From an uncultured Clostridia bacterium (GTDB lineage: Bacteria; Bacillota; Clostridia; Oscillospirales; Ruminococcaceae): DNA of 34,609 bases. The notes under the pieces are model-generated. The model did not search any database, was not told the DNA's origin, and was given only the letters and a program-made list of their open reading frames with translations. Below, one piece after another: positions 409 through 29,367 of this stretch (position 1 is its first letter; each line of letters begins with the position of its first letter). The position numbers and the translations under genes are program-made. The stretch lies in NCBI GenBank assembly GCA_947628615.1, contig CANRAO010000017.1, forward strand, positions 1-34,609, in the 5' to 3' direction.

Positions 409-1782
409 TTACTTATCAAGTTCTCTCAAAACATACTCTATCTGAGCTTTTACGCTTTCGGGTGCAGGTCCTCCTGCCGACTTTCTATGCATCACACAGG
501 TATCCAAAGAAATAGCTTTATAGACATCTTCATCAAAGCTGTCGCTAAGCTTTTTATATTCGTTTATCGGCAGTGTTTCAAGGGTAACGCCCAGCTCTAT
601 ACATCTTGCAACTAAAGTACCTGTTATTTTATAAGCGTCTCTGAACGGCATACCCTTTTTAACAAGATAGTCTGCACAGTCGGTTGCGTTTATGAATCCC
701 TTAGCCGCCGCGTTTCTCATATTCTCTTTTATAACCGTCATTGTAGACAGCATTGGTATAAATGTATTTATGCACAGCTTGACCGTATCTACAGCATCGA
801 ATATTGCCTCCTTATCCTCCTGCATATCCTTGTCATAAGCAAGCGACAGGTTTTTCATCATAGAAAGCAAAGTATTCAAATCTCCGTAAACACGGGCGGT
901 TTTGCCCCTGATAAGCTCGGTAACGTCGGGATTTTTCTTCTGTGGCATTATCGAAGAGCCTGTTGCGTAAGCGTCGTCAAGCTCTACAAATTTAAACTCC
1001 CACGAACACCATAAAATAATCTCCTCTGAAAAGCGAGACAGATGCATCATAAGTATTGAAATAGCACTTGCAAGCTCAATGCAGAAATCCCTGTCAGAAA
1101 CTCCGTCAAGCGAGTTTTGAGTAATCCCGTCAAAGCCTAAAAGCTCACAAACTCTCTGCCTGTCTATCTTGTAGGTAGTACCTGCTAAAGCACCGCTTCC
1201 TAAAGGCATTTGGTTCATTCTCTTATAGGTATCGTCAAGCCTTCCGACGTCACGCAGGAGCATATTTGCATATGCCATAAGATGATGAGCAAAGGTTATC
1301 GGCTGTGCTCTCTGAAGATGAGTATATCCAGGCATAACAGTTTCAATATGTTCTTTTGCCATATCGGTTATGGTATGAATCAACTTTACGGTTATACCTC
1401 TTATTTCTTTTATCTCATCTAAAAGGTACATTCTTATATCAAGTGCGACCTGATCGTTCCTTGAACGTGCAGTGTGAAGCCTTTTCCCTGCGTCGCCGAC
1501 ACGCTTAGTCAGTTCCGCCTCAATAAACATATGAATATCCTCAGCGTTTGGGTCAAATTCCAAAACCCCGTTATCAATATCTGCTAAAATACCCTTCAAC
1601 CCGTCTATAATGACCTCGCTCTCACTTTTGTCAATTATTCCGCACTCGCCCAGCATTGTTGCGTGGGCAATAGAGCCCTTTATATCGTGACGGTACATTC
1701 TCGCATCAAACTTTATAGACGAATTGAAATCGTTTACCCGCTCGTCAATATCTTTTGAAAAACGTCCTGCCCACATAGGCAT
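409..1782 (-). CDS. argH: Argininosuccinate lyase
   Basis: This enzyme splits argininosuccinate into arginine and fumarate, the last step of arginine synthesis. The 457 residues match the usual family length. It belongs to the fumarase/aspartase superfamily. The family signature GSSIMPQKKNP is at residues 275-285 with the catalytic serine loop, HTARSRNDQV is at 103-112, and GYTHLQRAQP, including the conserved His155, is at 152-161. The ATG at 1782 follows AAGGAGAG at good spacing. It is cotranscribed with argC downstream. It is separated from argG upstream by a 420-bp cassette holding a small four-helix-bundle gene, which is not usual for an argGH pair. Confidence 0.97.
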   Translation of the reverse strand: MPMWAGRFSKDIDERVNDFNSSIKFDARMYRHDIKGSIAHATMLGECGIIDKSESEVIIDGLKGILADIDNGVLEFDPNAEDIHMFIEAELTKRVGDAGKRLHTARSRNDQVALDIRMYLLDEIKEIRGITVKLIHTITDMAKEHIETVMPGYTHLQRAQPITFAHHLMAYANMLLRDVGRLDDTYKRMNQMPLGSGALAGTTYKIDRQRVCELLGFDGITQNSLDGVSDRDFCIELASAISILMMHLSRFSEEIILWCSWEFKFVELDDAYATGSSIMPQKKNPDVTELIRGKTARVYGDLNTLLSMMKNLSLAYDKDMQEDKEAIFDAVDTVKLCINTFIPMLSTMTVIKENMRNAAAKGFINATDCADYLVKKGMPFRDAYKITGTLVARCIELGVTLETLPINEYKKLSDSFDEDVYKAISLDTCVMHRKSAGGPAPESVKAQIEYVLRELDK

Positions 1783-13479: not shown

Positions 13480-13537
13480 ATCAAGCCGCCTCCATATCTA
13501 AAAGATTAATATATCTTACCATAAAATATATAAAAAA

Positions 13538-13566
13538 ATTATACAACATCTGAGAGGTTAAGTCAA
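13538..13566 (-). promoter_or_regulatory. ilvB promoter
   Basis: On the complement: TTGACT, 17-bp spacer, TATAAT. It lies directly downstream of the T-tract of hairpin RNA unit 1, so ilvB is started afresh rather than by read-through. Confidence 0.8.
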
Positions 13567-13591
13567 GCACATTAAAATAAGAAACAAAAAC

Positions 13592-13660
13592 AAAAAATTG
13601 ACAGATGAAGTTTCTAGAACGGACCGAAGTGCGTTCAAGTCAATAACTTCATCTGCCATT
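13592..13660 (-). ncRNA. Putative small hairpin RNA, unit 1
   Basis: Predicted transcript of about 68 nt. Arms: GGCAGATGAAGTT and AACTTCATCTGTC (13600-13657), a 13-bp stem, with an inner GAACG/CGTTC stem, followed by TTTTTT. One position pairs only as G-U on this strand (A-C on the other), which supports leftward transcription. The promoter lies directly before it. Could be an sRNA or simply a strong insulated terminator. No known RNA family recognised. Confidence 0.55.
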
Positions 13661-13666
13661 ATAATT

Positions 13667-13695
13667 ATAATATTATAAAACCAAAATATTGTCAA
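13667..13695 (-). promoter_or_regulatory. Promoter of hairpin RNA unit 1
   Basis: On the complement: CTATTGACAATATT includes -35 TTGACA; 17-bp spacer; -10 TATTAT (with overlapping TATAAT words just downstream). The predicted start is at the base of the hairpin. Confidence 0.65.
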
Positions 13696-13711
13696 TAGCG
13701 AAAGTATTAGA

Positions 13712-13780
13712 ATAAAAAGAATCAAGATTGGTTGAAACTTAATAGGCTCCAATCGCCGTTAGTCAACCAACCTGATTCTA
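13712..13780 (-). ncRNA. Putative small hairpin RNA, unit 2
   Basis: Predicted transcript of about 68 nt. Arms AGAATCAGGTTGGTTGA and TCAACCAATCTTGATTCT (13718-13779): 17 pairs with one bulge and one G-U pair that forms only on this strand; inner GGC/GCC; then TTTTT. Same design, size and direction as unit 1 but unrelated stem sequence. Confidence 0.55.
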
Positions 13781-13785
13781 ATAAA

Positions 13786-13813
13786 AATATATCACAAAAA
13801 ATAATATTGTCAA
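13786..13813 (-). promoter_or_regulatory. Promoter of hairpin RNA unit 2
   Basis: On the complement: CTATTGACAATATT includes -35 TTGACA; 16-bp spacer; -10 TATATT. The 14-base block around the -35 is identical to that of unit 1, 118 bp away. Confidence 0.65.
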
Positions 13814-13893
13814 TAGTAACCTTTTATTTTCGCTAATATTATGTACAACCTTTGCATATATTGCTATATACTTACAAAAAGGTTGATGAAATC

Positions 13894-29179: not shown

Positions 29180-29228
29180 TACAAACCTTTAACAGATTCA
29201 AATTATTTCTTATTTTTTATAAAAAGTC

Positions 29229-29257
29229 TTGACAAAGGCTCTGCTTAATGGTATAAT
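29229..29257 (+). promoter_or_regulatory. tRNA promoter
   Basis: TTGACA, 17-bp spacer, TATAAT: full consensus, 34 bp before the tRNA. Confidence 0.9.
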
Positions 29258-29290
29258 AAATAAGCACTAAAAAAGTATAATAAAATTTAT

Positions 29291-29367
<77 letters not shown>

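Follow-up and report, generated by a model that had tools for sequence, protein, structure and literature searches.

Tandem hairpin RNA units beside ilvB in a Clostridia genome belong to a family found antisense at phage RNase-like domains and may act as orphan antitoxin RNAs

The intergenic region between a divergent acyltransferase gene and ilvB in an uncultured Clostridia bacterium holds two promoter-hairpin-terminator units on the minus strand (13813-13592), here called units A and B. Coordinates refer to the window, that is, the whole stretch of DNA analyzed (contig CANRAO010000017.1, 34,609 nucleotides [nt]). An earlier note on this DNA had described the units as a tandem pair facing leftward, and the layout it gave was borne out. 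The block CTATTGACAATATT occurs exactly in both units (13685-13698 and 13803-13816, minus strand), the -35 boxes are 118 bp apart, and the -10 boxes are TATATT in unit A and TATTAT in unit B. Both promoters (TTGACA-16-TATATT and TTGACA-17-TATTAT) match the consensus at 11 of 12 positions. Transcription had been predicted to start at the foot of each hairpin and to run into a T-run; indeed, the hairpins begin at the 7th (A) and 9th (B) nucleotide past the -10 box and are followed by T-rich tails. The closed hairpins are 60-62 nt long, with folding energies of -24.0 kcal/mol (z = -4.7) for unit A and -25.7 kcal/mol (z = -5.5) for unit B. The features are listed below, each read directly from the sequence unless another basis is given.

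13808..13813, minus strand: -35 box TTGACA of unit A, within the identical block at 13803-13816
13786..13791, minus strand: -10 box TATATT of unit A, spacer of 16, preceded by TG
13718..13779, minus strand: predicted hairpin RNA of unit A, MuF_C-type (type A), from its fold and covariance model R1 (E = 2.2e-13, with the unit A sequence itself among those used to build the model)
13740..13761, minus strand: conserved core TAACGGCGATTGGAGCCTATTA of unit A, with the apical hairpin GGC-GAUUGGA-GCC, from sequence comparison
13710..13717, minus strand: T-rich tail of unit A
13690..13695, minus strand: -35 box TTGACA of unit B, within the identical block at 13685-13698
13667..13672, minus strand: -10 box TATTAT of unit B, spacer of 17
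13599..13658, minus strand: predicted hairpin RNA of unit B, LPD3-type (type B), from its fold, the scanner and likeness to the unit of an LPD3 gene in genome G014
13592..13598, minus strand: T-rich tail of unit B
13538..13566, minus strand: promoter of ilvB itself, TTGACT-17-TATAAT, adjoining the units but separate from them

The tandem arrangement exceeds what chance would give. When region 13480-13850 was shuffled 2,000 times with dinucleotide composition preserved, a scanner for promoter, hairpin and T-run (score ≥9.5, energy ≤-16) found one unit in three shuffles and two units in none; 20 shuffles of the whole window gave a mean of 0.15 units. Over the native window, the scanner returned both units, one weak match and nothing more. 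It had also been claimed that one pair in each stem is G-U only on the leftward strand, so that pairing favors leftward transcription. Taken literally this is correct, with one G-U pair in each transcript fold, but the complement of unit A has two. The leftward folds are slightly better than their complements (-24.0 versus -22.3 for unit A and -25.7 versus -22.9 for unit B). Among 60 scanner-picked units the transcript strand folds better in 47, an excess that is not telling because the scanner selects on transcript energy. As 22 type A and D units picked by sequence split 9 versus 13, strand asymmetry was rejected as a general rule.

The position of the pair directly upstream of ilvB, whose own promoter follows at once as the note had it, had suggested a link to branched-chain amino acid genes or a new kind of insulated terminator pair. 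The 330-480 bp upstream of the ilvB orthologue were compared in all 15 genomes of the same genus. Units were present in two of them, the source genome and G004, the latter with a unit of another type (B'). In G010 and G012 both ilvB flanks are kept, including the first -35 box or a near copy of it, and the ilvB promoter is retained, but the hairpins are absent; the other 11 upstream stretches contain no units. No T-box or ilvB leader was matched by Rfam in the window, the other arrays described below sit elsewhere, and homologues occur in phages and in Escherichia coli. On this distribution, regulation of ilvB by the units was rejected. Insulation would leave both the antisense nesting at phage toxin-type domain ends and the E. 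coli arrays unexplained, and we regard a regulatory or insulating role at ilvB as extremely improbable.

In a DNA search of 100 relatives, strong copies of the units (E < 1e-20) were confined to this genus, where several form arrays. The sister species G007 has 12 units in a row, G009 has 7, and the source genome has four (C1:207279-207721) in addition to the two in the window. By their inner sequence the units fall into types A (window unit A), B (window unit B), B', C, D and D'. Used as a query, the G007 array matched 8 of the 15 same-genus genomes. Units of types B, B' and C also occur in sister species at LPD3 genes or at an LPD3 remnant. Unit B of the window shares 55 of 60 nt with the unit of a prophage LPD3 gene in G014, the differences including a stem swap from A-U to G-C, and type B units of the Clostridia arrays are 55-59/60 like a prophage unit. 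The source genome itself encodes no MuF_C and no LPD3 domain, and none of the six neighboring window proteins scanned with Pfam was a toxin. Beyond cellular genomes, exact patterns for types B and D had no match in IMG/VR, a protein search of IMG/VR gave no relative of LPD3, and blastn of a Clostridia array against phages and plasmids gave no hit at E ≤ 1e-5. Two further observations concern the genus. The source genome has just one solo PBECR3-like gene (L186, G000:C1:167085-167303) in a 137-codon frame without an antisense unit, and G009 has a lone type C unit outside its main array, with a longer inner stem (L170, G009:C28).

Searches with the exact type A core found 11 loci in genome contigs and 3 in IMG/VR. 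At five of these loci (L052, L054, L059, L060 and L061) the unit lies antisense within an open frame of 1,643-2,577 codons, at the point where a MuF_C domain ends. In sister genomes G014 and G002, units of types B and B' are placed in the same antisense fashion where an LPD3 domain ends. Genes of this kind are the polyvalent proteins described in the available part of PMC5512222, where PBECR domains are predicted to be RNases that are probably packaged and injected.

This position was examined systematically with a single scanner setting (score ≥9, energy ≤-15). In a first set of loci, 17 of 23 MuF_C and 7 of 14 LPD3 domain ends had an antisense unit, and none had a sense unit. Five of these MuF_C loci had originally been found through the hairpin core; leaving them out gives 15 of 18. 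For a second set, 23 MuF_C places were collected by Pfam alone from 394 genomes of the order, excluding four places of the first set; 17 of the 23 had an antisense unit and none a sense unit. Among 27 PBECR3 places, antisense units were detected in 8 of 12 frames longer than 600 codons versus 1 of 15 shorter (solo) frames. Over all 87 places a single sense unit was found at a domain end, the borderline L172 (energy -15.0). Elsewhere in the same loci, the first set had 16 further units, all antisense, the second set 8 antisense and no sense units, and the PBECR3 loci 5 antisense units and 1 sense unit. As a control, 28 ilvB-type loci (100.8 kb) gave six matches at the same threshold, one being the real unit of G004. 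The domains are about 100 amino acids long and lie inside open frames of 118 to 3,710 codons; Pfam scans of the coding segments beside units returned MuF_C, LPD3 and PBECR3, with ART-PolyVal and PBECR5 nearby. The MuF_C model is only weakly similar to BECR RNase toxins, and a Foldseek search with it gave no match at E ≤ 0.001.

Places missed by the scanner were read by eye. Promoter and hairpin are visible at L054, L066, L071, L073 (atypical) and L076 of the first set, though not at L067, and at six of the seven missed LPD3 places, the seventh (L087) being doubtful. In the second set the core is present at L140 and L142, L154 is ambiguous, and nothing is seen at L155, L157 and L159; of these, L155 and L159 are overlapped by better matches to PBECR3 in short frames. 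Among the PBECR3 misses, L182, L183 and L194 appear to be positive. There is overlap and repetition among the sets: the same hairpin appears in L078 and L079 and in L062 and L063, the same unit in L088 and L174, contigs are shared by L066/L091/L096, L068/L092 and L180/L194, and L181 and L193 are one gene. Several prophage units (e.g., L042, L066, L070 and L091) have a TATAAT- or TATACT-like hexamer just upstream of the -35 box, such as TATAATACTATTGACA, which may act as an operator or as an additional promoter. Within 3 kb, a locus brought in by a covariance model match (L103, G063:C26) holds four units that look antisense, all with a TTGACT -35 box and a TATACT or TATTGT -10 box.

The hairpin core follows the domain family. 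MuF_C units have the core GGC-AAUUGGA-GCC; of the 12 PBECR3 places in long frames, 7 (two of them the same gene) have CGUUUCGGACG or a close variant. At MuF_C loci found by protein alone, the loop is constant while the stem varies among GGC/GCC, GGGG/CCCC (L064 and L144), GGGU/ACCC (L150) and GGAA/UUCC (L065 and L153). As the stem was maximized during loop choice, the tally of 23 of 36 in this comparison contains chance picks (L081, L143 and L149). Energy folds of 22 type A and D sequences gave the apical GGC-7nt-GCC hairpin in 21 (the exception being L072), with a 3-by-5 internal loop beneath it in 9. RNAalifold recovered 13 pairs from 17 units, six with changes on both sides, although some pairs are broken in this result by imperfect alignment of the left arm (alignment A5). 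Compensatory changes in relatives, which the earlier note had named as a check, are thus found both here and between unit B and its G014 counterpart. Overall, the stems of the type A family vary freely around about 22 fixed nt. Speculatively, the core might resemble a tRNA D-arm and the GGA sites of RegB. Of the note's proposal of two small RNAs under similar control, the recurrence of the same design in other genomes, the conserved cores and the compensatory changes are in favor; the RNAs themselves are predicted from sequence.

On the other strand the core reads NRLQLPL, and QLP is nearly invariant in the MuF_C domain. The hairpins could hence be relics of the QLP end of MuF_C genes, their conservation being that of the protein; an LPD3 remnant in G010 (L095) and, by eye, a MuF_C-like remnant beside a unit at L101 are in keeping with this. 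However, array copies retain promoter, fold, core and tail without a long reading frame, the pairs of the apical stem covary, and synonymous variation in the core is unusually low. At eight protein-found loci, codon identity at the same residues was 62/99 in the core versus 504/1,413 in the domain, and none of 142 seven-codon windows of the domain reached the value of the core. The codons of the core thus appear, from these comparisons, to be fixed beyond what the protein needs, and the same core recurs in noncoding arrays and with unrelated stems. A coding relic is accordingly a very improbable explanation. Conservation of the QLP peptide nonetheless weakens the codon argument, as part of the constraint on the core is shared with the protein.

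Copies of the core with no open frame of at least 400 codons across them include the arrays of the genus and L049, L055, L057, L050 and L056. In L050 (JAFVWS010000032.1) and L056 (JAFSHF010000022.1) a MuF_C-type core lies between two tRNA-like array units. These arrays consist of units of the form AAAGRYGCNNNCAGCA...YRYCTTG with ARAGORN tRNA calls and adjoin WYL-type genes, with a DUF2828 gene also present at L050. Downstream of the type A unit of L055 there are promoter-hairpin units of other types (866-1154, plus strand), e.g., around GAGGATATTGTTGGGCAACGCC; no cognate domain was found for them.

The same hairpins reach Escherichia. Phage PhiR5_2, with E. coli K-12 MG1655 as its recorded host, carries one antisense at the MuF_C end of a giant coding sequence (E = 4.2e-25), and PhiR12_3 carries another at its MuF_C end (E = 6.1e-18). 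Their promoter-like pairs are weaker and were recognized by eye only, the scanner having missed them. A hairpin query matched 117 of 5,426 E. coli genomes. Of the 60 matches listed, 5 fell within genes annotated as LPD38 and the other 55 in stretches without annotation. Six unannotated stretches were read, and all lie just downstream of SSB, ProQ/FinO and PerC genes, the ProQ/FinO gene being two genes upstream of the array in every case; these elements are presumably phage satellites. Five apical cores in a row were seen by eye in five of the six stretches and three in L200, folds were computed for the five hairpins of L202, and at least 80% of the array stretch was present in 111 of the 5,426 genomes. 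The L200 array (NZ_CP054363.1, 1694105-1699168) has as neighbors a methylase annotated as dcm and a type II restriction endonuclease.

Hairpin 2 of L202 is identical to the PhiR12_3 unit over 60 of 60 nt (three 20-nt blocks), whereas the flanking blocks agree at 3-9 of 20 positions. Hairpin 1 matches PhiR5_2 at 56 of 60 positions, with one compensated pair (G-C to U-A). Hairpins 3 and 4 match LPD38- or LPD5-annotated genes at 84-90% over 40-52 nt, and at least one of these places also matches hairpin 2. Identity that ends at the hairpin edges, together with tandem arrays, would be expected of small transposing or recombining modules similar to REP or attC elements, and units at domain borders could serve domain shuffling without any antitoxin role. 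Such modules would not account for the promoter, start-to-hairpin distance and T-tail kept by the Clostridia units, for their fixed strand and place, for a core type that tracks the domain family or for the codon constraint on the core, and we judge this explanation improbable.

The main rival is antisense silencing, similar to type I systems, in which the RNA pairs with the phage polyvalent mRNA, in cis keeping the gene off in the lysogen and in arrays and satellites silencing incoming or helper phages. Almost all units at domain loci are antisense, and complementarity in trans is long, as the satellite hairpin equals a phage unit over 60 nt and array B units reach 55-59/60. However, type A stems change freely outside the fixed 22 nt, and closed hairpins in multiple copies would suggest stoichiometric binding. 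Furthermore, the differences between unit B and G014 (A-U to G-C) and between PhiR5_2 and satellite hairpin 1 (G-C to U-A) are partly compensatory; they keep the fold and lose complementarity, which speaks against silencing. We therefore consider it unlikely, while still the most serious of the alternatives.

The explanation we favor, and hold to be reasonably probable, is that the units are RNA antitoxins, or immunity RNAs, against virion-borne RNase-like domains and are kept in trans. Sequence comparison shows that they form one RNA family, recognizable by antisense position, correspondence with domains, covariation, arrays and hairpin-bounded identity. We infer that they are transcribed, that the RNA binds protein, that the domains are toxic and that their neutralization protects the cell. 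Each unit would be a minimal RNA gene, with a sigma-70 promoter, a closed hairpin of about 60 nt and a terminator tail. The family is at home opposite the coding strand of phage genes for polyvalent proteins, where RNase-like domains (MuF_C and PBECR3) or LPD3 reach their 3' end. A lysogen would produce the hairpin steadily from this promoter, and the core, matched to a domain family, would bind and neutralize that domain when a phage particle delivers it or the lytic phase produces it. Stand-alone copies would be orphan immunity RNAs for cells or elements without the cognate toxin: in the window, unit A might act against MuF_C and unit B against LPD3, and the second array of the source genome and the E. 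coli satellite-like elements might serve likewise. An RNA antidote would be expected to look like this: the hairpin is exchanged whole between phage toxin genes and satellite-like elements, its core tracks the toxin domain, and many copies are kept where the toxin is missing. More tentatively, with the odds slightly against it, the arrays may form a heritable RNA immunity repertoire, in which bacteria and satellites of Bacillota and Escherichia collect toxin-binding hairpins singly, as copies of sequence on the strand opposite phage genes for polyvalent toxins, and by expressing them in arrays disarm the RNase domains that virions deliver.

If this is true, the immunity factor against polymorphic phage toxins would be an RNA encoded within the gene of the toxin. 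This would add to RNA immunity a form distinct from both CRISPR and the upstream antitoxins of type III systems, as well as a new type of overlapping gene. As PhiR5_2 is recorded on E. coli K-12, the antidote question is directly testable.

The note's statement that no known RNA family fits agrees with Rfam, where no family at its gathering threshold covers the window pair. At E ≤ 10 the G007 array gave only four chance rows (the best row being Plastid-psbA-2, below its cut-off), and four E. coli loci gave no family at E ≤ 0.1. The abiF RNA motif was not matched in any of these searches. Elsewhere in the window, Rfam S774, a Staphylococcus small RNA, reaches its cut-off at 29211-29364, overlapping a tRNA, and is probably the tRNA itself. 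No published account of these RNAs was recognized in the literature searched, which covered subscription journals thinly and returned many off-topic results.

Among known systems, the function proposed here would stand beside the type III antitoxins, while the architecture, an RNA nested antisense in a toxin gene with orphan arrays, appears new. In type III toxin-antitoxin systems the RNA antitoxin gene lies upstream of the toxin on the same strand and shares its promoter. ToxIN, CptIN and TenpIN resemble the present case in the proposed pairing of a structured RNA with an RNase-like toxin, in tandem RNA units and in the link to phages. Here, in contrast, the units lie antisense at the 3' end of a domain in a giant virion-type frame, every Clostridia unit has a promoter and tail of its own, and there are orphan arrays; with a sense unit at 1 of 87 domain places, the type III gene order is not seen, and Pfam scans of the coding segments beside units gave no ToxN-, CptN- or TenpN-type family. 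In type I systems the toxin is a small hydrophobic peptide. The phage loci share with them an RNA antisense to a toxin gene, although the window pair lies alone; the putative toxin here is no small peptide but one domain within a protein that is in most cases very large, and conservation of the hairpin cores extends across phyla and to arrays in trans.

In a Clostridioides difficile prophage, RCd22 neutralizes the toxic protein AbiF through RNA-protein contact, both in cis and in trans, according to the available part of PMC12373285. This provides a precedent for an RNA antitoxin acting in trans, and the likeness lies in a phage-encoded structured RNA directed, as we propose here, against a toxic protein. 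As far as that account extends, the present units differ in the RNA itself (without an Rfam match), in the protein families, in the antisense nesting and in the arrays; an Abi_2 (AbiD/F) partner was absent from the Pfam matches of the segments beside units. For MuF polymorphic toxins, a need for immunity was expected and small downstream open reading frames were proposed as immunity genes; judging by the available part of PMC5576092, guesses about what protects against MuF-type and polyvalent phage toxins have until now relied on such frames. The toxins belong to the same phage class, but the candidate here is an RNA rather than the product of a small frame.

Stand-alone arrays of immunity genes without toxins are familiar as orphan immunity clusters against interbacterial toxins. 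The arrays described here would be their counterpart, differing in that the immunity factors are RNA hairpins, not proteins, and that the targets are phage-borne domains.
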